A stretch of 64,000 nucleotides of DNA, taken from NCBI GenBank assembly GCA_016169945.1, contig JADLSH010000216.1:650501-714500 (forward strand). The letters are read 5' to 3'. Positions 7,781-64,000 of this stretch are shown here, in pieces; position 1 is the stretch's first letter, and every line of letters starts with the position of its first letter. The position numbers were made by a program, and so were the translations under genes. The notes under the pieces were generated by a model. It was given only the letters and a program-made list of their open reading frames with translations, was not told the origin of the DNA and searched no databases. The stretch is from Trachythela sp. YZ-2020 (Eukaryota > Cnidaria > Anthozoa > Malacalcyonacea > Clavulariidae).

Positions 7781-7786
7781 GGTATA
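7781..7786. other. Empty target site of the Polinton-like element
   Basis: A single GGTATA lies in the same flanks that in unit 2 are separated by a 6.6 kb element with GGTATA on both sides. It defines the 6-bp target duplication. Confidence 0.85.
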
Positions 7787-17280: not shown

Positions 17281-17640
17281 CAATGTTTCCTGGTTTACCT
17301 TTGGGAAACATGGCTAGGAAACAATGTTTCCTGGTTTAACCCACCTTCGGGAAAGATGGGGAAACAATGTTTCCCACCTTTGGGAGACATGGCTAGGAAA
17401 CAAGATTTTCTGGTTTGCCACCTTCGGGAAACATGGCTAAAAAACAATGTTTCCTAGTTTGCAAGCTACGGTTTCCTGGTTTGCCACCTTCGGAAAACAA
17501 TGGCTAAAAACATGCTCCTGGTTTGCCCATCTTTGAGAAACATGGTTAGGCGAAAATATTGATTAGTTTGCCCACCTTCGGGAAACATGGCTAGCCGCCT
17601 TCGGGAAACATGGTTTAAAGAATTAATTCGGAAATAACGT
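17281..17640. repeat. GGAAACATGG/AACAATGTTTCC minisatellite, unit 1
   Basis: Degenerate tandem copies of roughly 45-60 bp are built from AACAATGTTTCCTGGTTT, GCCCACCTTCGGGAAACATGG and GCTAGG. In unit 2 a 2.4 kb foldback element has inserted into its first copy. Confidence 0.75.
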
Positions 17641-18395: not shown

Positions 18396-19306
18396 GTTCA
18401 AATACGAACACATACTGGAGACAAACCTTATGAATGTGATGTTTGCAAGAAGAAATTTTCTAAGTCAAATAATTTGGAAACACATAAACGATCACATACT
18501 GGAGACAAACCTTATGAATGTGTTTGCAAGAAAAAGTTTTCTCAATCATGCAACTTAGGAAGACATAAGAGAAGACATACTGGAGACAGACCTTATAAAT
18601 GTGACGTTTGTGACAAACGATTTTCAAGTTCAAGCACCTTGGCAACACACAAAAGAACACACACTGGAGACAAACCTTATGAATGTGATGTTTGCAAGAA
18701 GAAATTTTCTCAGTCGAATATTTTGGCAACACATAAACGAACACATAGTGGAGACAAACCTTATGGATGTGATGTTTGCAATCAAAGATTTTCTCAATTA
18801 AGCAGCTTAGCAACACATAAAAGAACACACACTGGAGAAAAACCTTATGAATGTGATGTTTGCAAGAAGACATTTTCTCAGTCATATACTTTGACAACAC
18901 ATAAACGAACACATACTGGAGACAAACCTTATGAATGTGATGTTTGTGACAAACGATTTTCTCATTCAAGCACCTTAGCAAGACACAAAAGAACACACAC
19001 TGGAGACAAACCTTATGAATGTGATGTTTGCAGAAGAAATTTTCTAAGTCAAATAATTTGGAAACACATAAACGATCACATACTGGAGACAAACCTTATG
19101 AATGTGTTTGCAAGAAAAAGTTTTCTCAATCATGCAACTTAGGAAGACATAAGAGAAGACATACTGGAGACAGACCTTATAAATGTGACGTTTGTGACAA
19201 ACGATTTTCAAGTTCAAGCACCTTGGCAACACACAAAACACATACTGGAGACAAACCTTATGGATGTGATGTTTGCAATCAAAGATTTTCTCAATCAAGC
19301 AGCTGA
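18396..19306 (+). pseudogene. Plus-strand C2H2 zinc-finger array, unit 2
   Basis: Eleven finger repeats with THTGDKPY linkers (one THTGEKPY) run without a 5' exon or splice acceptor; the frame continues out of the boundary repeat from an ATG at 18372 that is probably not native. Fingers 2 and 9 read ECVCKKKF, a codon deletion that turns the C-x2-C knuckle into C-x-C and should abolish zinc binding. Fingers 8-10 duplicate 1-3, including that defect, so the array grew by a recent three-finger duplication. One base is missing near 19031, shifting frame at finger 8. The array ends at TGA 19304-19306 inside finger 11. I read it as a promoterless, truncated copy placed tail-to-tail with gene X. Confidence 0.75.
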
Positions 19307-26919: not shown

Positions 26920-27170
26920 GGTATAAGTAGTATGGAGCGGGGCTTAATGGAGCCCAGTTTTATGCGTAAAATTTAACGAGTTAACCCTGCATAATTCATG
27001 AGTTAATTATGTTAATGATCTGAATTAATTAATTCATTTCCGAGGATAATCCGAACAAATCCGAACAAATCCGGTATGAGTTATGAATATTAATGAGCAT
27101 TTATAATTAGATTCATTCCGACGACGTTAAAACAACGAGAGGTTTCCGACAGTTCGCCATTTGTTCCAAG

Positions 27171-27536
27171 ATGGCAGAACAGCTAATTCTGGATGTTTTT
27201 AAGGAAAATAATGTAGAATTAACGCAGGATACTTTACGGTTTTATATAAAACTGCTTTTAGAAAAGCATGAACATACATATAACTCCATGATATGTAGTA
27301 TTGTAAGAGATAATGTGTTTGAAAATTTATGTCAAACATATGAAGACTAAGCCTTTAAATTCTGGTAGAATTATGGCTTACTTGGCTTTAGTTTACAAAG
27401 TGAGCGATTTTTGTGACACTGAAACAGTGCGAGAAGCCGTTCGAATATGTGTAGACGATTTAAAACAATTTGATTTGCGAGCTATGAAATTAAACTGTCT
27501 TGGTTTCAACGCTTAATTTCATGGTTGGTGGGTTAG
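27171..27536 (+). pseudogene. Bcl-2-like gene, E1 left arm (frameshifted)
   Basis: Same gene as 32898-33266 but with two bases lost near 27345 (GAAGACTAAG for GAAGAGACTAAG) and one near 27475, so the reading frame is lost between the N-terminal half and the BH1-like segment and again before the C-terminus. The start ATG and the final TAG are kept. Confidence 0.6.
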
Positions 27537-27548
27537 TGTTACAGCTAA

Positions 27549-27999
27549 CAGGGGCCGGAGCCCCCGGGGGGGGGACAAGGGGGCCCCCCCCCCGCCGCTA
27601 TAATAGCAGGGAGCACGCCAAGGCAACTTTTCTTGTTTTTTTAGTGCAATAATGTGAATTATAATATATAAATTGTTTATACTAGCCGGACACTTATTAA
27701 TTGGAAATATATTAAACCTAAATATACGCTACCTTTTATGAAATCTGGAAACTTGATTTATATGTATATGATCTGGATAAATGTGATGAAAAAAAAACAT
27801 TTTGTGTTTTTTATATTGCGTTATATTTATATTGTAATTTATCAAAATCTCCACTAAAATAATAAGGAAAGAAAATTCATTGAGTGGAGTGTTGAGAGTG
27901 TTTAATTTTAATTTTATTTTATCCCGGACCCCTATACCCCATTTATCATGGGCTTCCTCATGGTTTCCCCGTCAGTTTGGCTACCTTCCGGCGCCCCTG
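27549..27999. mobile_element. hAT-type MITE inserted in E1 left arm
   Basis: It has inverted ends (CAGGGGCCGGA and the reverse complement of TTCCGGCGCCCCTG). An 8-bp duplication CAGCTTAA follows on the right (28000-28007); the left copy has lost one T. The other three arms read GTGTTACAGCTTAACCGCG without an insert. No transposase in its 451 bp; long G and C runs lie near the left end. Confidence 0.7.
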
Positions 28000-28085
28000 C
28001 AGCTTAACCGCGTGTAATTTGAATATCACTAATTGGAATTGAATAGCGAAAGTCATTAAGAAGTCATTAACTGTTGTACATGGGT

Positions 28086-28199
28086 GAACACATTGTACTT
28101 TAACGACATTGCCCAAACCATTAATTTTCCTCATTGACTTTAAATTGCTTAAGCAGGACAGAAAGACTGAACACATTGTACTTTAACGACAGTGCCCAA
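28086..28199. repeat. Direct 31-bp repeats in E arm
   Basis: GAACACATTGTACTTTAACG followed by ACATTGCCCAA (or ACAGTGCCCAA) occurs twice, 83 bp apart, between the Bcl-2-like gene and the UAG-split ORF. All four arms have it. It may be a promoter element or iteron; the function is unknown. Confidence 0.5.
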
Positions 28200-28367
28200 G
28201 CTTGATTTTGCTGAGCTTGTACAAAAAGGTTGTTAACGACTGGACTAGCCTGATCTTGTAGTTCTCTACACGGCGAAGTAGGGAGCACACATAGATAGCA
28301 CAAATTGAAAACTTTCGCTTTGGAGCAACGACGTAAAATCGTCGAAGTTGTACTTTAAAAAAAAAAT

Positions 28368-28756
28368 ATGTTGCAAGATGATATTTACATTGTTGACGAA
28401 AGTCGATTATGTCGGAACCCCCCTCAAATTGTTGGAAGCAATTTACGCTGATACAGTTGCAAATGAAATTACGCAGTTGTGCCAGGAAAACGAATGTAAT
28501 ATAGACGAAGGATGGCAGACGTACGGTATAGAAGCTATAGAACGTGTTAATAGCAAGCATTTGGTTTAGGACTCGTTTGTCGAGGCTGCAAGAATACTGA
28601 AAATCAATTGCCACGAAAACGTCCTTGAGCGTTTAAGAGAGTTAAAAAAGGCACCAGAACACATGTTCGTTTACGACTTGGAAGAATCGTATCACTATAG
28701 AAAGAGCCACCAATTTCAATGCATCCCAAATTATTTATCTTTTGGAGGAAAAGTAA
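28368..28756 (+). pseudogene. UAG-split ORF, E1 left arm (frameshifted)
   Basis: Same ORF as 58802-59191. Here an extra C in a C-run near 28420 shifts the frame after about 17 codons, and the 3' end differs by small indels. The internal TAG lies at 28567-28569. Confidence 0.5.
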
Positions 28757-29067
28757 ACAAGTCAAGGATATCGAATGCTCATATCCGTACGTGGTCAGGC
28801 AATATTTCTATAGTAAAAAGTAGTTGACGTGTTATTATAATTATAAAGAGGTTAAGGCGATAAACTTTTAATTCCACCTTTGGGATAACTTTACTTTACA
28901 TTAAAAGTTATACGTAAAGCATACTGTAACTAAACATTCAGTTATATTACGTGTGCATGCGCAATTGAAAATAGAGAAAATATACGTCTTGTGTACAATT
29001 TTATTAAAATATTATTACACTTCGCATAGAGTATATTATATCTGTTTATATAATGTAGTTGAGAAGT

Positions 29068-29649
29068 CTAGTCTGAATCAGTATTTTCGCCCTCTTCAAT
29101 ATAAGCATTGTCTTTTAAAAGACGTTTCAGAAGAAACTTTCTTTTATCAACGGCTGCTTCAAAAGCCTCATCATGATCAAAGTCGTCACTGTTTATAAAC
29201 ACATCTCTCGTGTTCATTACTTTTTTATGTACATGATTCCTCCTAAGCTGTCTCATCCACAATAGACGTTCCAGATAAACACTTTCGAGCTCTTTTTGTA
29301 GCTTAGGTAATATCAACGCGTACGCTTGCTTGTTGGAAGTTTCGTCATCAAGACCGTTTTCGATAAGATTCTGTTTTATTTCTTCGTACTCGCTGGCATA
29401 TCTTTGTTTTGCTTCTTCTATTAATGGTTTCCAAGGATCACTTTCATCTTCTAATTCAGATCCTGATTCATTTCCATCTACCTCAGAATTTTGTGCATTA
29501 TCACTATTTGACGCTTCGTCATCTGACTCCATGGGTACGGAATTGTGATCTGTATCCGACTCTTCCTCTCGGAATGGGCAGTATTCGTTTTCGTGTCTGC
29601 GCAAATTAAAGCGACGATTAAAAGATTTACCACAAAACTTGCAGCTCAT
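29068..29649 (-). CDS. C2H2/acidic protein, E1 left arm
   Basis: A 193-codon protein starts MSCKFCGKSFNRRFNLRRHE, a single zinc finger whose second histidine is replaced by a Cys (C-x2-C-x12-H-x4-C). An acidic Ser/Asp/Glu-rich stretch (about residues 25-70) and a helical C-terminal half with the basic segment RQLRRNHVHKK follow, ending in an acidic tail. I chose the ATG of MSCK; a GTG precedes it by one codon. The right arm encodes a near-identical copy. It is transcribed outward from the spacer toward the left end. Single-finger proteins occur in Polinton-like elements, but the family cannot be named from sequence alone. A DNA-binding or regulatory role is inferred. Confidence 0.7.
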   Translation of the reverse strand: MSCKFCGKSFNRRFNLRRHENEYCPFREEESDTDHNSVPMESDDEASNSDNAQNSEVDGNESGSELEDESDPWKPLIEEAKQRYASEYEEIKQNLIENGLDDETSNKQAYALILPKLQKELESVYLERLLWMRQLRRNHVHKKVMNTRDVFINSDDFDHDEAFEAAVDKRKFLLKRLLKDNAYIEEGENTDSD

Positions 29650-29699
29650 CACTCTAGCACTGTTAGTAGCAAATGAGGGATTTTAAGAAAATTATTGCC

Positions 29700-29830
29700 T
29701 CATGAGCACTTGCTCTGTTGTATAGCTCATGAATGAGCGTTGACGTAGACAAGCTCACGACGACCACTCATAATTACTCATACCCCATGAGCACTCTGAA
29801 ATGCTCATTTTCGTTGAGCAGAGATAAAAG
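29700..29830. promoter_or_regulatory. TGAGC/GCTCA-rich inverted repeat cluster, E1 left arm
   Basis: Short palindromes (GCTCATGAATGAGC, ACTCATAATTACTCAT, TGAGCACTCTGAAATGCTCA) are packed between the divergently placed C2H2/acidic gene and the small basic ORF. The same words recur in the spacer and at the inner arm edge. The position suggests a bidirectional promoter or a replication/recombination site; this is inference. Confidence 0.4.
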
Positions 29831-29899
29831 ATGGCCCGAGCAAGACGAAAACATGACAGATGTCCCGTAACTCATTCAGACTGGCTACCAGACCTGTAA
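29831..29899 (+). CDS. Small basic ORF, E1 left arm
   Basis: A 22-codon ORF (MARARRKHDRCPVTHSDWLP, then DL and TAA) is found in all four arms. Its end overlaps a donor-like CT|GTAAGA, so it may instead be a first exon; downstream frames encode a CQQCSKRLL segment. Too short for confidence. Confidence 0.3.
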   Translation: MARARRKHDRCPVTHSDWLPDL

Positions 29900-30032
29900 G
29901 AATTTTCATGCCCTATCTACTTTGCCAACAATGCTCCAAACGACTGCTGGCTGCTGGAAGCCGAGTTGAAAAGTACGAAGATATAGTATTTTCAACACTT
30001 TTGTGGACAAGCTCACGACGACCACTCATGAT

Positions 30033-30858
30033 ATAGGGCCCGCAGTAATTGGCCTATACGCTGTTGCGGATTCCCTGCCATTCTGTTATAAATTTACAAG
30101 GCAAATTAAATAAATAAATGATTACTCATGCCTCATGCATGAGTAGTTGGTCTGTATAGCTCATGAATGAGCATTGACGTAGACAAGCTCACGACAACCA
30201 CTCATAATTACTCATACCCCATGAGCTGACTTTGAGTGACTTGGTCCTTATGTCTGTTCAACATCCCACTTAGCCGCATACTAGATTAGACAGAAAGGAT
30301 ATTCATGTCTGCTACGGATAGTATAGGCTCAAAAACCAAGCGGTCTTTTTGGAAGACACCAAATAGATTAACCTGAAAATAGGCCTGTTCTCAACTCTTG
30401 GCGTAAAATGATTTTCGCTTTGCGGTATTGCTTTGTATTGCCAATCAACCCTGTTGACTTTACATTAACTGCTTTTTGGCTCGCTCGGAAGGGATCGATT
30501 GAGCACGGTTGAACTACGCTCACGATATGTTATTGAACTTATTCATACAGAACTCATAAAAATACTGGGCTTACAATGTTCATTTACGTTGAGCATATAT
30601 GAGTAGTGGCCCAAGCTGAACGAAAATAATGTATAGAAGAATAATATAGAAGTTATTGGTGAGAGATGTATGCAACATCACAAGTGTTAAATAGAACATT
30701 ACTTATATCCGCAAGTTAATTTCGCTATAGTCGCATCTTGAGAGATTGTATTTTCGTATAATTAAGTCAATTAATGGATCATGTTTTCGTCTTGCTCGGG
30801 CCATCTATTATGTGCTCAACGAAAATGAGCATTTCAGAGTGCTCGTGAAGCATGAGTA
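30033..30858 (+). other. E1 central spacer
   Basis: The only non-palindromic part of the element. It contains two extra partial copies of the TGAGC-rich cluster (30150-30235 and 30590-30620) and no ORF above about 60 codons that I would defend. It is the reverse complement of the E2 spacer. The plus sign is arbitrary. Confidence 0.7.
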
Positions 30859-30991
30859 ATCATGAGTGGTCGTCGTGAGCTTGTCCACAAAAGTGTTGAA
30901 AATACTATATCTTCGTACTTTTCAACTCGGCTTCCAGCAGCCAGCAGTCGTTTGGAGCATTGTTGGCAAAGTAGATAGGGCATGAAAATTC

Positions 30992-31060
30992 TTACAGGTC
31001 TGGTAGCCAGTCTGAATGAGTTACGGGACATCTGTCATGTTTTCGTCTTGCTCGGGCCAT
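30992..31060 (-). CDS. Small basic ORF, E1 right arm
   Basis: Mirror copy of 29831-29899. Confidence 0.3.
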   Translation of the reverse strand: MARARRKHDRCPVTHSDWLPDL

Positions 31061-31241
31061 CTTTTATCTCTGCTCAACGAAAATGAGCATTTCAGAGTGC
31101 TCATGGGGTATGAGTAATTATGAGTGGTCGTCGTGAGCTTGTCTACGTCAACGCTCATTCATGAGCTATACAACAGAGCAAGTGCTCATGAGGCAATAAT
31201 TTTCTTAAAATCCCTCATTTGCTACTAACAGTGCTAGAGTG

Positions 31242-31823
31242 ATGAGCTGCAAGTTTTGTGGTAAATCTTTTAATCGTCGCTTTAATTTGCGCAGACACGA
31301 AAACGAATACTGCCCATTCCGAGAGGAAGAGTCGGAGACAGATCACAATTCCGTACCCATGGAGTCAGATGACGAAGCGTCAAATAGTGATAATGCACAA
31401 AATTCTGAGGTAGATGGAAATGAATCAGGATCTGAATTAGAAGATGAAAGTGATCCTTGGAAACCATTAATAGAAGAAGCAAAACAAAGATATGCCAGCG
31501 AGTACGAAGAAATAAAACAGAATCTTATCGAAAACGGTCTTGATGACGAAACTTCCAACAAGCAAGCGTACGCGTTGATATTACCTAAGCTACAAAAAGA
31601 GCTCGAAAGTGTTTATCTGGAACGTCTATTGTGGATGAGACAGCTTAGGAGGAATCATGTACATAAAAAAGTAATGAACACGAGAGATGTGTTTATAAAC
31701 AGTGACGACTTTGATCATGATGAGGCTTTGGAAGCAGCCGTTGATAAAAGAAAATTTCTTCTGAAACGTCTTTTAAAAGACAATGCTTATATTGAAGAGG
31801 GCGAAAATACTGATTCAGACTAG
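31242..31823 (+). CDS. C2H2/acidic protein, E1 right arm
   Basis: Mirror copy of the left-arm gene, 193 codons, intact. It differs from the left copy at two residues or so (for example Asp to Glu in the acidic stretch). Both copies of E1 are open while both copies of E2 are frameshifted, so E1 is the better preserved element for this gene. Read outward toward the right end. Confidence 0.7.
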   Translation: MSCKFCGKSFNRRFNLRRHENEYCPFREEESETDHNSVPMESDDEASNSDNAQNSEVDGNESGSELEDESDPWKPLIEEAKQRYASEYEEIKQNLIENGLDDETSNKQAYALILPKLQKELESVYLERLLWMRQLRRNHVHKKVMNTRDVFINSDDFDHDEALEAAVDKRKFLLKRLLKDNAYIEEGENTDSD

Positions 31824-32135
31824 ACTTCCTCAACTACATTATATAAACAGATATAATATACTCTATGCGAAGTGTAATAATATTTTAATAAAATTGTACA
31901 CAAGACGTATATTTTCTCTATTTTCAATTGCGCATGCACACGTAATATAACTGAATGTTTAGTTACAGTATGCTTTACGTATAACTTTTAATGTAAAGTA
32001 AAGTTATCCCAAAGGTGGAATTAAAAGTTTATCGCCTTAACCTCTTTATAATTATAATAACACGTCAACTACTTTTTACTATAGAAATATTGCCTGACCA
32101 CGTACGGATATGAGCATTCGATATCCTTGACTTGT

Positions 32136-32526
32136 TTACTTTTCCCTCCAAAAAGATAAATAATTTAGGATGCATTGAAATTGGTGGCTCTTTCTATAGT
32201 GATACGATTCTTCCAAGTCGTAAACGAACATGTGTTCTGGTGCCTTTTTTAATTCTCTTAAACGCTCAAGGACGTTTTCGTGGCAATTGATTTTCAGTAT
32301 TCTTGCAGCCTCGACAAACGAGTCCTAAACCAAATGCTTGCTATTAACACGTTCTATAGCTTCTATACCGTACGTCTGCCATCCTTCGTCTATATTACAT
32401 TCGTTTTCCTGGCACAACTGCGTAATTTCATTTGCAACTGTATCAGCGTAAATTGCTTCCAACAATTTGAGGGGGGTTCCGACATAATCGACTTTCGTCA
32501 ACAATGTAAATATCATCTTGCAACAT
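32136..32526 (-). pseudogene. UAG-split ORF, E1 right arm
   Basis: Mirror of the left-arm ORF, sharing the extra C near the start and the internal TAG (complement at 32328-32330). The part after the TAG is open to its TAA. Confidence 0.5.
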
Positions 32527-32897
32527 ATTTTTTTTTTAAAGTACAACTTCGACGATTTTACGTCGTTGCTCCAAAGCGAAAGTTTTCAATTTGTGCTATC
32601 TATGTGTGCTCCCTACTTCGCCGTGTGAGAACTACAAGATCAGGCTAGTCCAGTCGTTAACAACCTTTTGTACAACCTCAGCAAAATCAAGCTTGGGCAC
32701 TGTCGTTAAAGTACAATGTGTTCAGTCTTTCTGTCCTGCTTAAGCAATTTAAAGTCAATGAGGAAAATTAATGGTTTGGGCAATGTCGTTAAAGTACAAT
32801 GTGTTCACCCATGTACAACAGTTAATGACTTCTTAATGACTTTCGCTATTCAATTCCAATTAGTGATATTCAAATTACACGCGGTTAAGCTGTAACA

Positions 32898-33266
32898 CTA
32901 ACCCACCAACCATGAAATTAAGCGTTGAAACCAAGACAGTTTAATTTCATAGCTCGCTAAATCAAATTGTTTTAAATCGTCTACACATATTCGAACGGCT
33001 TCTCGCACTGTTTCAGTGTCACAAAAATCGCTCACTTTGTAAACTAAAGCCAAGTAAGCCATAATTCTACCAGAATTTAAAGGCTTAGTCTCTTCATATG
33101 TTTGACATAAATTTTCAAACACATTATCTCTTACAATACTACATATCATGGAGTTATATGTATGTTCATGCTTTTCTAAAAGCAGTTTTATATAAAACCG
33201 TAAAGTATCCTGCGTTAATTCTACATTATTTTCCTTAAAAACATCCAGAATTAGCTGTTCTGCCAT
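32898..33266 (-). CDS. Bcl-2-like protein, E1 right arm
   Basis: A 122-residue helical protein starts MAEQLILDVFKENN. Residues about 63-80 (PLNSGRIMAYLALVYKVS) match the Bcl-2 BH1 pattern around the conserved Gly-Arg, with Ser in place of the usual Trp. About 48 residues later, SWFQRLISWLVG matches BH2 in spacing and Trp content. The N-terminal helix with LRFYIKLLLEKH may cover BH3/BH4-equivalent helices. There is no C-terminal membrane anchor. Bcl-2-fold proteins block or promote mitochondrial apoptosis, and anti-apoptotic versions are known from several animal DNA viruses and reported from Polinton-related adintoviruses. The role here is inferred. The gene lies near the end of the arm and reads inward's opposite neighbour arrangement is mirrored at 27171. 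Confidence 0.6.
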   Translation of the reverse strand: MAEQLILDVFKENNVELTQDTLRFYIKLLLEKHEHTYNSMICSIVRDNVFENLCQTYEETKPLNSGRIMAYLALVYKVSDFCDTETVREAVRICVDDLKQFDLASYEIKLSWFQRLISWLVG

Positions 33267-33507
33267 CTTGGAACAAAATGGCGAACTGTCGGAAACCTCT
33301 CGTTGTTTTAACGTCGTCGGAATGAATCTAATTATAAATGCTCATTAATATGCATAACTCATACTCGGATTTGTTCGGATTATCCTCGGAAATGAATTAA
33401 TTAATTCAGATCATTAACATAATTAACTCATGAATTATGCAGGGTTACCCGTTAAATTTTACGCATAAAACTGGGTCCATTAAGCCCCGCTCCATACTAC
33501 TGGTATA

Positions 33508-42443: not shown

Positions 42444-43189
42444 TTTCGTCCTTCTAAAAGTCGAAAAGTCCTCCTTGTGGCTAAATAAAGATAAAAGATT
42501 GCACATTTGCCCGCATAGCCTCACTCGGCTAACCTTACAACAAACCCAGCCTGCGTGCAGTTCTCCCAAACGTAAGCATAATTATAATTCTATTTAACCC
42601 TAACTCCCAAACTAACCCTAACCAACCTAATAAACGTTTACAAATTACAAATAGACAATTAACTGAATAATTGAATAAACAATGTTTCCTGGTTTACCTT
42701 TAGTCCAGGACCTGTATATGAGTTTGTATGCATTTCATTTAGGACAGATAATCTCAACTGTTTTAGGGCAAGTTGACCATGGCGGTCAACATGGTAACGC
42801 TGCCCGAACCCCAATCCGGGGCGAAACGTCCGAAACGGACCACACCCAAAAATGACGCTTTCACCATGGAGCTATCTACCAAACCATAAAAGCTTTGGCT
42901 ATTCTGAGGTGATTATATGGTTCAGAGATAGTGCTTTTAGGGGGGTCATTGGTAAGTGTGAAATGCCTAGCACTGATATTTCACAAGAAAATGACCATAC
43001 AATACTCATGGTCAAACGTCAATTTGTGGCTTACAACTTCAGATAAACAGCATTGGACCTACATTACCTTTTTCCCTAAATCTTTTTGATAGAAACATAA
43101 TTGGTACTTATTTAAGTATATTACCACTGTTTTGGTGTAAAATAGTAAATATTTTGTGACCGAAATAATAATTTGAAATGTACCCACCT

Positions 43190-43290
43190 CCTGCAAATGG
43201 ACGTATTTGGCCAAATTCGCCACTTTACTCCGCTGTTTATCACCGATACTCGTTGAAATCCTTCCAAATATGTAAGTCAGTTCAGACATA
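43190..43290 (-). pseudogene. Captured first-exon-like segment, left arm
   Basis: Mirror of 44552-44652; the donor here reads GAG|GTGGGT. Confidence 0.4.
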
Positions 43291-44551
43291 ATGGTATCAA
43301 GCACATTTTAAACAAGTTTTAACTAGGTTTCAAGTATATCCTAGCTGTTTAACCATCGACAAGGTAAAACCTCAACTTTGTCCAAATTCGGCGCCATTGT
43401 GTCATCCCGTGTCGGTTGTCAACAATTCGGCCTCGTTATTCTTCCTTCAAGCCATTTCGATTACACTAGTAACAAATTTAACCCTTTATTATGGGTATGA
43501 AGATAAAAATATGAATAAAAGATACGAAATGCAGCATTTTACCTCCCTGTAAAATGTTGCTTACGAGTCTTTCAAAACATTCCGTACAAATCTCGCGTGG
43601 TCAAAGTGACAGGGCCGTGCAGGGGGGTGATGTTTTTCACGAAGATATAAGAAGGCTGCGTGTGACAACAGGAACCCAAGCTGACTTAATTAACTTTAGT
43701 TGAATATAGACTAAAAACTGAACTATTAGTGCAAGCTAACTCTAAAATACATCCTAAACTATACTGTTATTTACGGAATACTACTTTTTTAAACTAATAA
43801 CATTTTTTTTACATTTTTTGTCCAAATATATTATATAAAGTTCATATTTTAACGTCAAGTATAAACTGCAACTCTGACTTGTTATTTTTAGAATGTTACT
43901 AATATTATATTAATGAAAATAACTACAGGTATATATTATCAAACATTTATATTATTGGTTAGTAGTGTTGAACTTTTTCCTGTTTATACTTTTACAAAAC
44001 TGAGGACAGAAATTTAGAAAAAAATATGTTATTAATTTAAAAAAGTAGTATTCAGTAAATAACAGTATAGTTTAGGGTATTTTAGAGTTAGCTTTCACTA
44101 ATAGTTCAGTTTTTAGTCTGTATTCAACTAAAGTTAAGTCAGCTTGGGTTCCTGTTGTCACACGCAGCCTTCTTCCAGAGGCCTTCTTCTATCTTCGTGA
44201 AAAACATTCACCCCCCCTGTCACGGCCTGTCACTTTGCCCACGTGAGATTTGTACGGAATGTTTTGAAAGACTCGTAAGCAACATTTTACAGGGAGTTAA
44301 AATGCTGCATTTCGTATCTTTTATTCATATTTTTATCTTCATACCCATAATAAAGGGTTAAATTTGTTACTAGTGTAATCGAAATGGCTTGGATGGAAGA
44401 ATAACGAGGCCGAATTGTTGACAACCGACACGGGATGACACAATGGCGCCGAATTTGGACAAAGTTGAGGTTTTACCTTGTCGATGGTTAAACAGCTAGG
44501 ATATACTTGAAACCTAGTTAAAACTTGTTTAAAATGTGCTTGATACCATTA

Positions 44552-44652
44552 TGTCTGAACTGACTTACATATTTGGAAGGATTTCAACGAGTATCGGTGA
44601 TAAACAGCGGAGTAAAGTGGCGAATTTGGCCAAATACGTCCATTTGCAGGAG
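44552..44652 (+). pseudogene. Captured first-exon-like segment, right arm
   Basis: The reading frame MSELTYIFGRISTSIGDKQR continues to HLQE and stops at a donor GAG|GTAGGT. Upstream sequence resembles a 5' untranslated region, including ATGGCGCCGAATTTGG. Both arms carry it, so the exon was captured and then mirrored. The source gene is not recognised. Confidence 0.45.
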
Positions 44653-45140
44653 GTAGGTACATTTCAAATTATTTCGGTCACAAAATATTTACTATTTTAC
44701 ACCAAAACAGTGGTAATATACTTAAATAAGTACCAATTATGTTTCTATCAAAAAGATTTAGGGAAAAAGGTAATGTAGGTCCAATGCTGTTTATCTGAAG
44801 TTGTAAGCCACAAATTGACGTTTGACCATGAGTATTGTATGGTCATTTTCTTGTGAAATATCAGTGCTAGGCATTTCACACTTACCAATGACCCCCCATG
44901 AAAGCACTATCTCTGAACCATATAAGCACCTCAGAATAGCCAAAGCTTTTATGGTTTGGTAGATAGAACCATGGTGAAAGCGTCGTTTTTGGGTGTGGTC
45001 AGTTTCGGATGTTTCGCCCCGGATTGGGGTTCGGGCAGCGTTACCATGTTGACCGTCATGGTCAACTTGCCCTAAAACAGTTGAGATTATCTGTCCTAAA
45101 TGAAATGCATACAAACTCATATACAGGTCCTAGACTACTT

Positions 45141-56759: not shown

Positions 56760-57818
56760 AATATAATAGAATCGGGGAAACGAGAGTTGAAAATAGTTTT
56801 AACAGCACCTTAACTGGAACCCTACCACATTGGAAAACTTTTTGAAAAAATTGTGAGAAAATTTCGTGAATGAAAAGAACGAGGAATCGAACCCAAGAAC
56901 ACGTGCGTACTTGCCAGAGACACTGACCTGGATATAGACTGGATAACGCATCTATTGTTGAAAAGTGAAGCCGCAAGTGAATTGCCGCCACCCGACTCAG
57001 AGGTCCCAGTTTACTATAGATTTGTATTACAGAATCATAGTTTTCGCGGGTTTTTTCGTTATTTTCTTATCACATGGATAGATGTACACGAGAAGTATTT
57101 TGAGCAAAAAATTCCGGTTGTTTTGGCTTCGATAACGTTGGAAAACGGGATTTGAAAGTTTGAAAGAGTGAACATGCACTGCTTAGCTTTAATAAACAAA
57201 GGTTGTTCTGAAACAGATAACAGGACATTCTCATTCAAAATCCACTCAAGACATGGAGTAACTGCTACACAAATCAAGTAGTCTGGACGTTTGATGAAAT
57301 GAACCAACTACACTGTGAACAAAAGCGAAATTGAGATAAGTCTTACATACATTATTCAGCTCACTCCCCATTGGGGCTTTTCAGTGACCGATTACATCAG
57401 GTATCTAGCTTACCTATAATAATGTACTTACGGCGGTCAACTTCAAAAATGTTGCCACTTAACGAGAAGTTACATCCCTCGCAGTAAAACCCAGCTATTC
57501 TAAATGATCCTGATCTTCCAGTACAGCGACTCCTTAAAGTTGCATATTGCATAGGAAATAGTAAATATAAGACTTATTTTAACAAAATTTTAAATATATA
57601 TTTACATTTAGAGAATGCGTTTCAGCTTAATAAATATTACTATTGTTTATCTTAACGGAATAAGTATTGTTTTTGTCACTTCTATTTTTGTTCTGAATTT
57701 CAACCGAACTATTTAACTAAATATAAATCTATACTTTTATAATAATTAACTATCTGTGCGTATCTTTTTATTTGGCGCTTTCATTTCCTCACTTCGTTTA
57801 CGTTTCTCGTATTCGTCA
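56760..57818. other. No gene recognised
   Basis: Same sequence as 25862-26919, including the remaining LINE thumb codons at its left edge (to about 56850), the B-box-like motif and the boundary repeat. Confidence 0.45.
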
Positions 57819-58061
57819 GGTATAAGTAGTATGGAGCGGGGCTTAATGGGGCCCAGTTTTATGCGTAAAATTTAACGAGTTAACCCTGCATAATTCATGA
57901 GTTAATTATGTTAATGATCTGAATTAATTAATTCATTTCCGAGGATAATCCGAACAAATCCGAGTATGAGTTATGCATATTAATGAGCATTTATAATTAT
58001 ATTCATTCCGACGACGTTAAAACAACGAGAGGTTTCCGACAGTTCGCCATTTTGTTCCAAG

Positions 58062-58430
58062 ATGGCAGAACAGCTAATTCTGGATGTTTTTAAGGAAAAT
58101 AATGTAGAATTAACGCAGGATACTTTACGGTTTTATATAAAACTGCTTTTAGAAAAGCATGAACATACATATAACTCCATGATATGTAGTATTGTAAGAG
58201 ATAATGTGTTTGAAAATTTATGTCAAACATATGAAGAGACTAAGCCTTTAAATTCTGGTAGAATTATGGCTTACTTGGCTTTAGTTTACAAAGTGAGCGA
58301 TTTTTGTGACACTGAAACAGTGCGAGAAGCCGTTCGAATATGTGTAGACGATTTAAAACAATTTGATTTAGCGAGCTATGAAATTAAACTGTCTTGGTTT
58401 CAACGCTTAATTTCATGGTTGGTGGGTTAG
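58062..58430 (+). CDS. Bcl-2-like protein, E2 left arm
   Basis: Intact 122-codon copy, same predicted protein as 32898-33266 with the BH1-like NSGRIMAYLA and the BH2-like SWFQRLISWL. The ATG follows CCAAG (CCAAGATGGCAG), a good initiation context. The ORF lies 237 bp inside the element end, so its promoter may be in the terminal repeat itself. Confidence 0.6.
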   Translation: MAEQLILDVFKENNVELTQDTLRFYIKLLLEKHEHTYNSMICSIVRDNVFENLCQTYEETKPLNSGRIMAYLALVYKVSDFCDTETVREAVRICVDDLKQFDLASYEIKLSWFQRLISWLVG

Positions 58431-58801
58431 TGTTACAGCTTAACCGCGTGTAATTTGAATATCACTAATTGGAATTGAATAGCGAAAGTCATTAAGAAGT
58501 CATTAACTGTTGTACATGGGTGAACACATTGTACTTTAACGACATTGCCCAAACCATTAATTTTCCTCATTGACTTTAAATTGTAAGCAGGACAGAAAGA
58601 CTGAACACATTGTACTTTAACGACAGTGCCCAAGCTTGATTTTGCTGAGCTTGTACAAAAAGGTTGTTAACGACTGGACTAGCCTGATCTTGTAGTTCTC
58701 TACACGGCGAAGTAGGGAGCACACATAGATAGCACAAATTGAAAACTTTCGCTTTGGAGCAACGACGTAAAATCGTCGAAGTTGTACTTTAAAAAAAAAA
58801 T

Positions 58802-59191
58802 ATGTTGCAAGATGATATTTACATTGTTGACGAAAGTCGATTATGTCGGAACCCCCTCAAATTGTTGGAAGCAATTTACGCTGATACAGTTGCAAATGAA
58901 ATTACGCAGTTGTGCCAGGAAAACGAATGTAATATAGACGAAGGATGGCAGACGTACGGTATAGAAGCTATAGAACGTGTTAATAGCAAGCATTTGGTTT
59001 AGGACTCGTTTGTCGAGGCTGCAAGAATACTGAAAATCAATTGCCACGAAAACGTCCTTGAGCGTTTAAGAGAATTAAAAAAGGCACCAGAACACATGTT
59101 CGTTTACGACTTGGAAGAATCGTATCACTGTAGAAAGAGCCACCAATTTCAATGCATCCTAAATTATTTATCTTTTTGGAGGGAAAAGTAA
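58802..59191 (+). CDS. UAG-split ORF, E2 left arm (best copy)
   Basis: The frame opens MLQDDIYIVDESRLCRNPLK and runs 66 codons to TAG (58999-59001; context TTG GTT TAG GAC TCG). It then stays open another 62 codons (DSFVEAARILKINCHENVLE onward) to TAA at 59189-59191. The protein is helical and charged with several Cys. No family recognised. The continued open frame suggests either a recent nonsense mutation or read-through; all four arms share the TAG. Confidence 0.5.
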
Positions 59192-59503
59192 ACAAGTCAA
59201 GGATATCGAATGCTCATATCCGTACGTGGTCAGGCAATATTTCTATAGTAAAAAGTAGTTGACGTGTTATTATAATTATAAAGAGGTTAAGGCGATAAAC
59301 TTTTAATTCCACCTTTGGGATAACTTTACTTTACATTAAAAGTTATACGTAAAGCATACTGTAACTAAACATTCAGTTATATTACGTGTGCATGCGCAAT
59401 TGAAAATAGAGAAAATATACGTCTTGTGTACAATTTTATTAAAATATTATTACACTTCGCATAGAGTATATTATATCTGTTTATATAATGTAGTTGAGGA
59501 AGT

Positions 59504-60084
59504 CTAGTCTGAATCAGTATTTTCGCCCTCTTCAATATAAGCATTGTCTTTTAAAAGACGTTTCAGAAGAAATTTCTTTTATCAACGGCTGCTTCCAAAG
59601 CCTCATCATGATCAAAGTCGTCACTGTTTATAAACACATCTCTCGTGTTCATTACTTTTTTATGTACATGATTCCTCCTAAGCTGTCTCATCCACAATAG
59701 ACGTTCCAGATAAACACTTTCGAGCTCTTTTTGTAGCTTAGGTAATATCAACGCGTACGCTTGCTTGTTGGAAGTTTCGTCATCAAGACCGTTTTCGATA
59801 AGATTCTGTTTTATTTCTTCGTACTCGCTGGCATATCTTTGTTTTGCTTCTTCTATTAATGGTTTCCAAGGATCACTTTCATCTTCTAATTCAGATCCTG
59901 ATTCATTTCCATCTACCTCAGAATTTTGTGCATTATCACTATTTGACGCTTCGTCATCTGACTCCATGGGTACGGAATTGTGATCTGTCTCCGACTCTTC
60001 CTCTCGGAATGGGCAGTATTCGTTTTCGTGTCTGCGCAAATTAAAGCGACGATTAAAAGATTTACCACAAAACTTGCAGCTCAT
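59504..60084 (-). pseudogene. C2H2/acidic protein, E2 left arm (frameshifted)
   Basis: Same gene as 29068-29649. One base is missing near 59573 (GAAATTTC for GAAACTTTC-like), which shifts the last ~25 codons. The finger, acidic stretch and basic segment are intact. Confidence 0.6.
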
Positions 60085-60265
60085 CACTCTAGCACTGTTA
60101 GTAGCAAATGAGGGATTTTAAGAAAATTATTGCCTCATGAGCACTTGCTCTGTTGTATAGCTCATGAATGAGCGTTGACGTAGACAAGCTCACGACGACC
60201 ACTCATAATTACTCATACCCCATGAGCACTCTGAAATGCTCATTTTCGTTGAGCAGAGATAAAAG

Positions 60266-60334
60266 ATGGCCCGAGCAAGACGAAAACATGACAGATGTCC
60301 CGTAACTCATTCAGACTGGCTACCAGACCTGTAA
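60266..60334 (+). CDS. Small basic ORF, E2 left arm
   Basis: Copy of 29831-29899, identical in sequence. Confidence 0.3.
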   Translation: MARARRKHDRCPVTHSDWLPDL

Positions 60335-60467
60335 GAATTTTCATGCCCTATCTACTTTGCCAACAATGCTCCAAACGACTGCTGGTTGCTGGAAGCCGAG
60401 TTGAAAAGTACGAAGATATAGTATTTTCAACACTTTTGTGGACAAGCTCACGACGACCACTCATGAT

Positions 60468-61292
60468 TACTCATGCTTCACGAGCACTCTGAAATGCTCA
60501 TTTTCGTTGAGCACACATAATAGATGGCCCGAGCAAGACGAAAACATGATCCATTAATTGACTTAATTATACGAAAATACAATCTCTCAAGATGCGACTA
60601 TAGCGAAATTAACTTGCGGATATAAGTAATGTTCTATTTAACACTTGTGATGTTGCATACATCTCTCACCAATAACTTCTATATTATTCTTCTATACATT
60701 ATTTTCGTTCAGCTTGGGCCACTACTCATATATGCTCAACGTAAATGAACATTGTAAGCCCAGTATTTTTATGAGTTCTGTATGAATAAGTTCAATAACA
60801 TATCGTGAGCGTAGTTCAACCGTGCTCAATCGATCCCTTCGAGCAGGCAAAAAGCAGTTAATGTAAAGTCAACAGGGTTGATTGGCAATACAAAGCAATA
60901 CCGCAAAGCGAAAATCATTTTACGCCAAGAGTTGAGAACAGGCCTATTTTCAGGTTAATCTATTTGGTGTCTTCCAAAAAGACCGCTTGGTTTTTGAGCC
61001 TATACTATCCGTAGCAGACATGAATATCCTTTCTGTCTAATCTAGTATGCGGCTAAGTGGGATGTTGAACAGACATAAGGACCAAGTCACTCAAAGTCAG
61101 CTCATGGGGTATGAGTAATTATGAGTGGTTGTCGTGAGCTTGTCTACGTCAATGCTCATTCATGAGCTATACAGACCAACTACTCATGCATGAGGCATGA
61201 GTAATCATTTATTTATTTAATTTGCCTTGTAAATTTATAACAGAATGGCAGGAATCCGCAACAGCGTATAGGCCAATTACTGCGGGCCCTAT
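60468..61292 (-). other. E2 central spacer (inverted relative to E1)
   Basis: Starts TACTCATGCTTCACGAGC and ends GCGGGCCCTAT; the E1 spacer starts ATAGGGCCCGC and ends GCTCGTGAAGCATGAGTA. It is therefore the reverse complement of the E1 spacer, while flanks and arms keep their orientation. Confidence 0.75.
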
Positions 61293-61425
61293 ATCATGAG
61301 TGGTCGTCGTGAGCTTGTCCACAAAAGTGTTGAAAATACTATATCTTCGTACTTTTCAACTCGGCTTCCAGCAGCCAGCAGTCGTTTGGAGCATTGTTGG
61401 CAAAGTAGATAGGGCATGAAAATTC

Positions 61426-61494
61426 TTACAGGTCTGGTAGCCAGTCTGAATGAGTTACGGGACATCTGTCATGTTTTCGTCTTGCTCGGGCCAT
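61426..61494 (-). CDS. Small basic ORF, E2 right arm
   Basis: Mirror copy of 60266-60334. Confidence 0.3.
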   Translation of the reverse strand: MARARRKHDRCPVTHSDWLPDL

Positions 61495-61674
61495 CTTTTA
61501 TCTCTGCTCAACGAAAATGAGCATTTCAGAGTGCTCATGGGGTATGAGTAATTATGAGTGGTCGTCGTGAGCTTGTCTACGTCAACGCTCATTCATGAGC
61601 TATACAACAGAGCAAGTGCTCATGAGGCAATAATTTTCTTAAAATCCTCATTTGCTACTAACAGTGCTAGAGTG

Positions 61675-62255
61675 ATGAGCTGCAAGTTTTGTGGTAAATC
61701 TTTTAATCGTCGCTTTAATTTGCGCAGACACGAAAACGAATACTGCCCATTCCGAGAGGAAGAGTCGGATACAGATCACAATTCCGTACCCATGGAGTCA
61801 GATGACGAAGCGTCAAATAGTGATAATGCACAAAATTCTGAGGTAGATGGAAATGAATCAGGATCTGAATTAGAAGATGAAAGTGATCCTTGAAACCATT
61901 AATAGAAGAAGCAAAACAAAGATATGCCAGCGAGTACGAAGAAATAAAACAGAATCTTATCGAAAACGGTCTTGATGACGAAACTTCCAACAAGCAAGCG
62001 TACGCGTTGATATTACCTAAGCTACAAAAAGAGCTCGAAAGTGTTTATCTGGAACGTCTATTGTGGATGAGACAGCTTAGGAGGAATCATGTACATAAAA
62101 AAGTAATGAACACGAGAGATGTGTTTATAAACAGTGACGACTTTGATCATGATGAGGCTTTGGAAGCAGCCGTTGATAAAAGAAAGTTTCTTCTGAAACG
62201 TCTTTTAAAAGACAATGCTTATATTGAAGAGGGCGAAAATACTGATTCAGACTAG
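61675..62255 (+). pseudogene. C2H2/acidic protein, E2 right arm (frameshifted)
   Basis: Same gene; a G is missing near 61891 (CCTTGAAACC for CCTTGGAAACC), which creates a TGA after the acidic stretch. The C-terminal half is open in the neighbouring frame. Confidence 0.6.
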
Positions 62256-62568
62256 ACTTCCTCAACTACATTATATAAACAGATATAATATACTCTATGC
62301 GAAGTGTAATAATATTTTAATAAAATTGTACACAAGACGTATATTTTCTCTATTTTCAATTGCGCATGCACACGTAATATAACTGAATGTTTAGTTACAG
62401 TATGCTTTACGTATAACTTTTAATGTAAAGTAAAGTTATCCCAAAGGTGGAATTAAAAGTTTATCGCCTTAACCTCTTTATAATTATAATAACACGTCAC
62501 AACTACTTTTACTATAGAAATATTGCCTGACCACGTACGGATATGAGCATTCGATATCCTTGACTTGT

Positions 62569-62958
62569 TTACTTTTCCTCCAAAAAGATAAATAATTTAG
62601 GATGCATTGAAATTGGTGGCTCTTTCTATAGTGATACGATTCTTCCAAGTCGTAAACGAACATGTGTTCTGGTGCCTTTTTTAACTCTCTTAAACGCTCA
62701 AGGACGTTTTCGTGGCAATTGATTTTCAGTATTCTTGCAGCCTCGACAAACGAGTCCTAAACCAAATGCTTGCTATTAACACGTTCTATAGCTTCTATAC
62801 CGTACGTCTGCCATCCTTCGTCTATATTACATTCGTTTTCCTGGCACAACTGCGTAATTTCATTTGCAACTGTATCAGCGTAAATTGCTTAAAAAAATTT
62901 GAGTGTGGTTCAGATATAATCGACTTTCGTCAACAATGTAAATATCATCTTGCAACAT
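62569..62958 (-). pseudogene. UAG-split ORF, E2 right arm
   Basis: Carries the shared TAG (complement near 62757-62759). Around 62887-62915 it differs strongly from the other arms (AAAAAAATTTGAGTGTGG instead of CCAACAATTTGAGGGGGG), so the arms are not perfect copies. Confidence 0.5.
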
Positions 62959-63326
62959 ATTTTTTTAAAGTACAACTTCGACGATTTTACGTCGTTGCTC
63001 CAAAGCGAAAGTTTTCAATTTGTGCTATCTATGTGTGCTCCCTACTTCGCCGTGTGAGAACTACAAGATCAGGCTAGTCAGTCGTTAACAACCTTTTTGT
63101 ACAAGCTCAGCAAAATCAAGCTTGGGCACTGTCGTTAAAGTACAATGTGTTCAGTCTTTCTGTCCTGCTTAAGCAATTTAAAGTCAATGAGGAAAATTAA
63201 TGGTTTGGGCAATGTCGTTAAAGTACAATGTGTTCACCCATGTACAACAGTTAATGACTTCTTAATGACTTTCGCTATTCAATTCCAATTAGTGATATTC
63301 AAATTACACGCGGTTAAGCTGTAACA

Positions 63327-63695
63327 CTAACCCACCAACCATGAAATTAAGCGTTGAAACCAAGACAGTTTAATTTCATAGCTCGCTAAATCAAATTGTT
63401 TTAAATCGTCTACACATATTCGAACGGCTTCTCGCACTGTTTCAGTGTCACAAAAATCGCTCACTTTGTAAACTAAAGCCAAGTAAGCCATAATTCTACC
63501 AGAATTTAAAGGCTTAGTCTCTTCATATGTTTGACATAAATTTTCAAACACATTATCTCTTACAATACTACATATCATGGAGTTATATGTATGTTCATGC
63601 TTTTCTAAAAGCAGTTTTATATAAAACCGTAAAGTATCCTGCGTTAATTCTACATTATTTTCCTTAAAAACATCCAGAATTAGCTGTTCTGCCAT
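63327..63695 (-). CDS. Bcl-2-like protein, E2 right arm
   Basis: Third intact copy of the 122-codon gene, mirror of 58062-58430. Three of four arms keep this frame open, the best preservation of any gene in the elements. Confidence 0.6.
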   Translation of the reverse strand: MAEQLILDVFKENNVELTQDTLRFYIKLLLEKHEHTYNSMICSIVRDNVFENLCQTYEETKPLNSGRIMAYLALVYKVSDFCDTETVREAVRICVDDLKQFDLASYEIKLSWFQRLISWLVG

Positions 63696-63931
63696 CTTGG
63701 AACAAAATGGCGAACTGTCGGAAACCTCTCGTTGTTTTAACGTCGTCGGAATGAATATAATTATAAATGCTCATTAATATGCATAACTCATACTCGGATT
63801 TGTTCGGATTATCCTCGAAATGAATTAATTAATTCAGATCATTAACATAATTAACTCATGAATTATGCAGGGTTAACTCGTTAAATTTTACGCATAAAAC
63901 TGGGCCCCATTAAGCCCCGCTCCATACTACT

Positions 63932-64000
63932 TATACCTGACGAATACGAGAAACGTAAACGAAGTGAGGAAATGAAAGCGCCAAATAAAAAGATACGCAC
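63932..64000. repeat. Inverted copy of the E2 left flank
   Basis: The 69 bases to the window end are the reverse complement of 57756-57824, host sequence outside the element. Confidence 0.85.

Follow-up and report, generated by a model that had tools for sequence, protein, structure and literature searches.

A 64,000-nucleotide stretch of the genome of the anthozoan Trachythela sp. YZ-2020 (contig JADLSH010000216.1, positions 650,501 to 714,500; hereafter the window) carries at positions 26926-33501 a palindromic element whose arms each bear, from the end toward the centre, a Bcl-2-like gene, a middle open reading frame (ORF) named P2 and a single-C2H2 zinc-finger gene. Palindromes of the same kind stand at other sites of the genome between perfect 6-bp target duplications, which indicates that the palindrome itself is the mobile form and not a local accident: a whole family recurs and moves in this state. 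In every element examined, the same end of a linear element is joined near the centre to its own reverse complement. We consider it fairly probable that these palindromes belong to a multi-copy family of Polinton/Maverick-like elements that is non-autonomous and is renewed by fold-back copying with a helper.

Structure and insertion site of the element

The element is an insertion whose coordinates (26926-33501, in tandem unit 2) are exact, being set by its ends, its target duplication, an empty site and its match to its own reverse complement. It has AGTAGT...ACTACT ends that are perfect inverted copies, with AGTAGTATGGAGCGGGGCTTAATGG read inward from each of them, and the end motif is AGTAGTATGGAGC. 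Comparison of the flanks identified GGTATA on both sides of the element (26920-26925 and 33502-33507), and comparison of the units showed that the homologous site of tandem unit 1 is empty and uninterrupted, with a single GGTATA at 7781-7786. The inverted ends, 6-bp duplication and unit-1 empty site described in the original prediction are thereby confirmed. The 25-base end motif has four matches in the window vs. 0.00 expected by chance; two belong to the element and the other two to a second copy in unit 3 (57825-63931), which was delimited by copy alignment and has the same target site as the copy of unit 2.

Alignment of the element with its own reverse complement separates a left arm (26926-30032; 2.65 kb plus a 457-bp insert), a non-palindromic centre of 826 bp (30033-30858) and a right arm (30859-33501; 2,643 bp), each arm measuring about 2.64 kb without the insert. 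The two arms are 99.5% identical by substitutions and differ by 12 substitutions and 11 indel events. The insert (27546-28002), found by arm alignment, is present in the left arm of the unit-2 copy only; a GC-rich stretch lies at its start.

A palindromic family across the genome

When the element's first 300 bases were used to query the 578-Mb genome, 40 scored matches among 188 candidates were returned, corresponding to 27 elements, two in the window (G000:C198:650501-714500 in the genome listing) and 25 fetched. All 27 are palindromic, with palindrome lengths of about 3.7-11.2 kb, and the main inverted arms of the first ten fetched elements measure 1.8-3.9 kb and are 97.8-99.8% identical. 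Of the 25 fetched elements, 21 lie between perfect 6-bp duplications; these are all the testable copies, and their duplications mark 20 sites besides that of the window. A first set comprises GAGGTG, AATGTT, TCTATA, GCTGTG, TACATA, TATGCC, GAAATG, TATGTC, GGTATA and TACGAA, where GGTATA is the target site of the window in another tandem unit; a second set comprises TAGTGG, TAGGTC, ACCAGT, ATCCCC, TCCCTG, AATATC, CATATT, TTTCTT, AATGTT, TTCTTA and CCCAGG, the AATGTT duplication occurring twice at two separate places. The left end of three elements (L025, L028, and L033) was not found in the fetched stretch, leaving their duplication untestable, and L034 is an inversion junction. AGTAGT...ACTACT is present at both window copies and at all found ends of the fetched copies but one: L021 has TTTAGT at its left end.

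Polintons/Mavericks are asymmetric elements of 15-20 kb, and in this they differ from a family of palindromes of the lengths given above in which the core genes were not seen. The family nonetheless has the 6-bp duplications, the AG...CT or (AGT)2//(ACT)2 ends and, with its 2.64-kb arms, the long terminal inverted repeats by which Maverick elements are characterized in excerpts of a published description (PMC8097293). The Polinton-type ends and duplications that had been proposed from the window are therefore supported both by the 20 further sites and by the published end motif.

The zinc-finger gene was also used as a query and gave 154 matches (150 of 1,435 candidates scored), some of them outside the listing. 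Of those listed, 123 at 72-99% identity were classified, with the group at 53-61% left out, and fall into 66 places: 45 with exactly one divergent inverted pair, five with other multiple patterns (one of which is "++," with no inverted pair) and 16 with a single match. Of the 16 single places, sequence was retrieved for eight: six came from the end search, and two (L039 and L040, 4 kb read from each) were chosen on purpose. All eight are palindromic in their DNA. L039 and L040 have swapped outer modules: in L039 a GRF zinc-ribbon protein (Pfam E 4.5e-23) is flanked by the inner arm on one side and by a divergent Bcl-2-like ORF (75.8% DNA identity) on the other, and in L040 the outer arm is 79.4% identical. 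Cargo may thus have been exchanged among family members by recombination.

The 53-61% group was considered as a possible autonomous parent of the family, an idea weakened by the one place examined, on contig C322, which is a 3.0-kb element with inverted ends. No PolB among the listed matches falls on this contig; the 699 bases with the zinc-finger gene itself lie outside the fetched sequence. The C322 element (L035/L036, G000:C322:1605305-1608318), the place of a 57%-identical zinc-finger relative, has inverted ends of at least 396 bp that are not AGTAGT and a possible 6-bp duplication, TGCGGC.

Formation and proposed renewal of the palindromes

With window positions 30033-33501 as the junction reference, the elements follow a common plan in which the reverse complement of the sequence from X to the end is joined to the sequence from Y to the end, some centres being nested or rearranged. 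The (X,Y) junction is about 732/194 in 10 of the 27 elements and 827/1 in seven, four of which are C198 copies; 1064/86-106, 734/381, 747/86 and others were also found. Several junctions would result either from repeated palindrome formation from one end or from repeated trimming of one older junction. Substitution differences between arms average 0.31% within an element (the 25 pairs with enough columns) vs. 1.14% between elements (1,324 pairs, those within the C198 array being left out). The nearest arm is the element's own partner for 28 of the 52 arms (ties counted), and partner arms differ by 0-0.90% over all aligned columns, L019 excepted. The arms appear homogenised within each element, for which fold-back copying in each cycle or gene conversion can both suffice. 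The original prediction had envisaged accessory genes kept in the terminal repeats, as in poxviruses, after simple gene loss; a palindromic family with homogenised arms points instead to a copying mechanism.

No PolB, integrase, protease, ATPase or capsid gene was detected in the element, as judged from ORF sizes and from Pfam scans of the three arm genes in four pieces; the longest ORF spans 204 amino acids (aa) stop to stop, and the ORFs of the centre, outside the scan, have at most 59 aa, or 66 aa where one reaches into an arm. Loss of the replication and capsid genes, as previously suggested, agrees with their absence from the element; the search by element end for relatives bearing PolB, integrase or capsid genes returned the 27 palindromes, and among these there is neither a full-length Polinton sharing their ends nor any other autonomous relative. 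A genome search for PolB (PF03175) gave 209 matches, with 76 of 783 candidates scored; of the matches listed, nearly all have no stops. Among the listed matches, no PolB is closer than 128 kb to a family copy, in a comparison of 77 PolB entries, two of which are parts of one gene (about 76 places), with 77 family entries, several per element. At one PolB locus, on contig C141, neither inverted ends nor family DNA appear in the 9 kb on each side, and both family proteins are absent there. As the ends and duplications are of Polinton type and no listed PolB match is near the copies, a helper acting in trans is the simplest reading, and the family is presumably non-autonomous and moved by such a helper. 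Many of the approximately 76 listed PolB places have long open frames, and the genome looks rich in Polinton/adintovirus-like elements.

In the mechanism that we propose, a helper of Polinton/adintovirus type would supply a protein-primed PolB and an integrase, and both ends of the palindrome would serve as origins and as integrase sites. A displaced strand would fold back and be copied, regenerating two near-identical arms, and the integrase would insert the fold-back product. The Bcl-2-like gene would probably restrain host cell death during replication of the helper or of the element. Defective symmetric genomes of adenovirus are an analogue of fold-back copying; our literature search found none. 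More tentatively, and with doubts that outweigh our confidence, we can picture these elements as self-perpetuating palindromic satellites of Polinton-type viruses, with a resident virus or Polinton as helper: one arm would be copied by fold-back in each cycle, so that the palindrome is rebuilt, death-suppressing and DNA-binding genes would be kept in both arms, modules would be swapped by recombination, and chromosomal inversions would arise as a side effect.

Several points weigh against renewal by fold-back copying with a helper. The copies were selected by similarity to the window's own end, and the sample represents this family only. No full-length element with the family ends is among the 27 elements, no genome search having been aimed directly at the end motif or at the Bcl-2-like protein, and a PolB element with such ends could have been missed, as the PolB comparison covers the listed matches only. 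For 24 of the 52 arms, the nearest arm is other than the own partner, and the two arms of L019 are 1.15% apart in a comparison of 782 columns. Gene conversion between inverted repeats in the chromosome would likewise be expected to homogenise the arms, and the varied centre junctions could derive by deletion from a single older one.

The best of the alternatives, which we nevertheless judge unlikely, is a Foldback-type cut-and-paste element similar to Galileo, whose arms would have grown by recombination or repair and whose DDE transposase would be unrelated to Polintons. To our knowledge, Galileo/Foldback elements carry no Bcl-2-like cargo. Excerpts of a published account attribute to Galileo long inverted arms and chromosomal inversions generated by ectopic recombination (PMC4168063), and the window family shows both. 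The right flank of the unit-3 copy (63932-64000, minus strand) is indeed an inversion junction, the exact reverse complement of the left flank (57756-57824) for 69 bases up to the window end, and the centre of this copy is inverted relative to that of unit 2 (99.3%). About 32 kb beyond the unit-3 copy, L034 has two right flanks, identical at 192 of 202 aligned columns. The unit-3 and L034 junctions form the reciprocal pair that recombination between inverted arms of two elements in a tandem array would be expected to leave; an inversion of about 32 kb next to the window was apparently produced by recombination between two element copies (G000:C198:708325-752443), as read from its two junctions and not from the intervening sequence. 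Against a Galileo-type origin, the same excerpts give Galileo duplications of 7 bp, rarely 8 bp, and a P-type transposase (PMC4168063), whereas 6 bp were found at 21 of 21 testable fetched copies, the ends match the Maverick motif (PMC8097293, in part) and the element has no transposase-sized ORF.

Still less probable is a Polinton devoid of core genes in which the palindrome formed once, for example by break repair after insertion, and then spread only through copies of that one lineage. The junction class at about 732/194, found in more than a third of the elements, is what would be expected of a founder; however, at least four other junction classes argue against a single formation, and arms more alike within than between elements are insufficiently explained by single formation and faithful copying without conversion and trimming. 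Finally, palindromes are a known artefact of long reads and the unit-3 flank resembles a fold-back, but false palindromes assembled from fold-back long reads are extremely improbable here, being contradicted by distinct host flanks with 6-bp duplications at the 20 other sites, the arm differences, the one-arm insert, the empty site and a pair of junctions consistent with a single inversion.

Genes of the arms and comparison with known systems

The Bcl-2-like frame is intact in three of the four window arms. In the unit-2 copy, it is intact in the right arm only (32898-33266, minus strand, 122 aa; identified by ORF, Pfam and structure matches) and broken in the left arm (27171-27536, plus strand); in the unit-3 copy, arm comparison located two intact genes (58062-58430, plus strand; 63327-63695, minus strand). 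The original layout, in which each 2.64-kb arm carries all genes, holds for the arms but not for an intact Bcl-2-like gene in both. The 122-residue protein is very probably Bcl-2-like: its 50 best structural matches all belong to the Bcl-2 family, in agreement with a Bcl-2 helical fold, so that the structure search suggested with the original prediction supports the fold it had proposed. Pfam matches to Bcl-2 were obtained for 5 of 11 aligned family proteins and to E1B 19K for 2 of 11. Counting against this identity, the 122-aa protein scores 17 bits (E 0.0087) against Pfam Bcl-2, below the cut-off of 31.4, Foldseek gave no match with E < 0.001, and of the two divergent natural Bcl-2-like ORFs, in L039 and L040, only one matches Pfam Bcl-2 (E 0.072). 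Viral Bcl-2 proteins (gammaherpesvirus vBcl-2 and adenovirus E1B 19K) are among the top viral structure matches, all with E > 0.1; the first viral matches are only about 7-16% identical, and the family protein has only 122 aa.

Among 57 Bcl-2-like copies of at least 90% length, window included, 31 encode 122 aa, 20 encode 127-128 aa, two encode 118 aa and four are broken; 26 of 54 zinc-finger gene copies are intact (window included). Divergence between loci is 0.31% for the Bcl-2-like gene, 0.85% for the zinc-finger gene, 1.48% for P2 and 1.3-1.8% for intergenic sequence. The Bcl-2-like gene has four synonymous and 13 non-synonymous variants (ratio to opportunity, 0.82) and is much less variable than the sequence on either side, even at synonymous sites (0.0154 per site-allele vs. 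0.037-0.057). Purifying selection is not demonstrated as the cause of this low divergence: with synonymous variants just as rare as the others, a recent spread of the Bcl-2-like block, or its conversion, would fit equally well.

The single-C2H2 zinc-finger protein (194 aa) is encoded at 31242-31823 (plus strand; ORF and Pfam) in the right arm and at 29068-29649 (minus strand; ORF and arm comparison) in the left arm; it has 239 relatives at E up to 0.01, of which 28 were taken into the alignment. P2, traced by ORF comparison, is broken by an internal stop at 28368-28824 (plus strand, left arm) and 32041-32526 (minus strand, right arm; low end approximate). This stop is identical in all four window arms, and an open copy is present at another locus; searches with that copy and with a piece of the window P2 found no recognisable relatives. 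In L039, the GRF zinc-ribbon protein (L039:715-1440, 242 aa stop to stop) stands in the place of P2.

Comparable gene sets are known from adintoviruses, some of which have zinc-finger "Ziftr" genes, likened here by description and not by sequence, and of which the mammal-associated ones appear to encode anti-apoptotic homologs, in line with the apoptosis-related genes invoked at the outset (PMC11071296, in part). In contrast, adintoviruses are defined by a PolB with an OTU-like domain, a hexon and a chromodomain integrase (PMC11071296, in part), none of which is present in the palindromic element, where no ORF is that large. A BCL2-like motif is described, in excerpts on the giant Gypsy-like Burro retrotransposons of planarians, within the huge polyprotein of a long terminal repeat retrotransposon (PMC6431247); a Bcl-2-like domain on a mobile element is therefore not new in itself, although here each arm of a DNA palindrome has it as a small gene of its own. 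Ginger2 elements have 4-5-bp duplications and TGTNR ends, in place of the 6 bp and AGTAGT found here. Symmetric recombinants of adenovirus contain an inverted duplication of part of the genome including an end. The same arrangement is reported for snapback genomes of adeno-associated virus (PMC8235507, in part). Such snap-back or symmetric defective genomes are by-products of infection, whereas the palindromes described here are integrated at many sites as a family. The literature searched yielded no description of non-autonomous or palindromic Polintons.

With a gene-bearing palindrome as the mobile form, it becomes possible to test how protein-primed elements generate and maintain palindromes, whether such viruses have resident satellites and how satellites reshape chromosomes. 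Here a small Bcl-2-like gene, a classic viral tool against cell death, is placed in both arms of a DNA element.

Tandem units of about 19 kb that hold C2H2 zinc-finger arrays are present in the window (1-64000); the second of them, unit 2, begins near 19149 and is 97.7% like unit 1 over 7.9 kb. These arrays and units, with the genome size, are in keeping with an animal host. Another near-palindromic insertion (42701-45137), 2.4 kb matching its own reverse complement at 92%, lies in unit 2, is absent from unit 1 at 17299-17302 and has ends unlike those of the main palindromic family.

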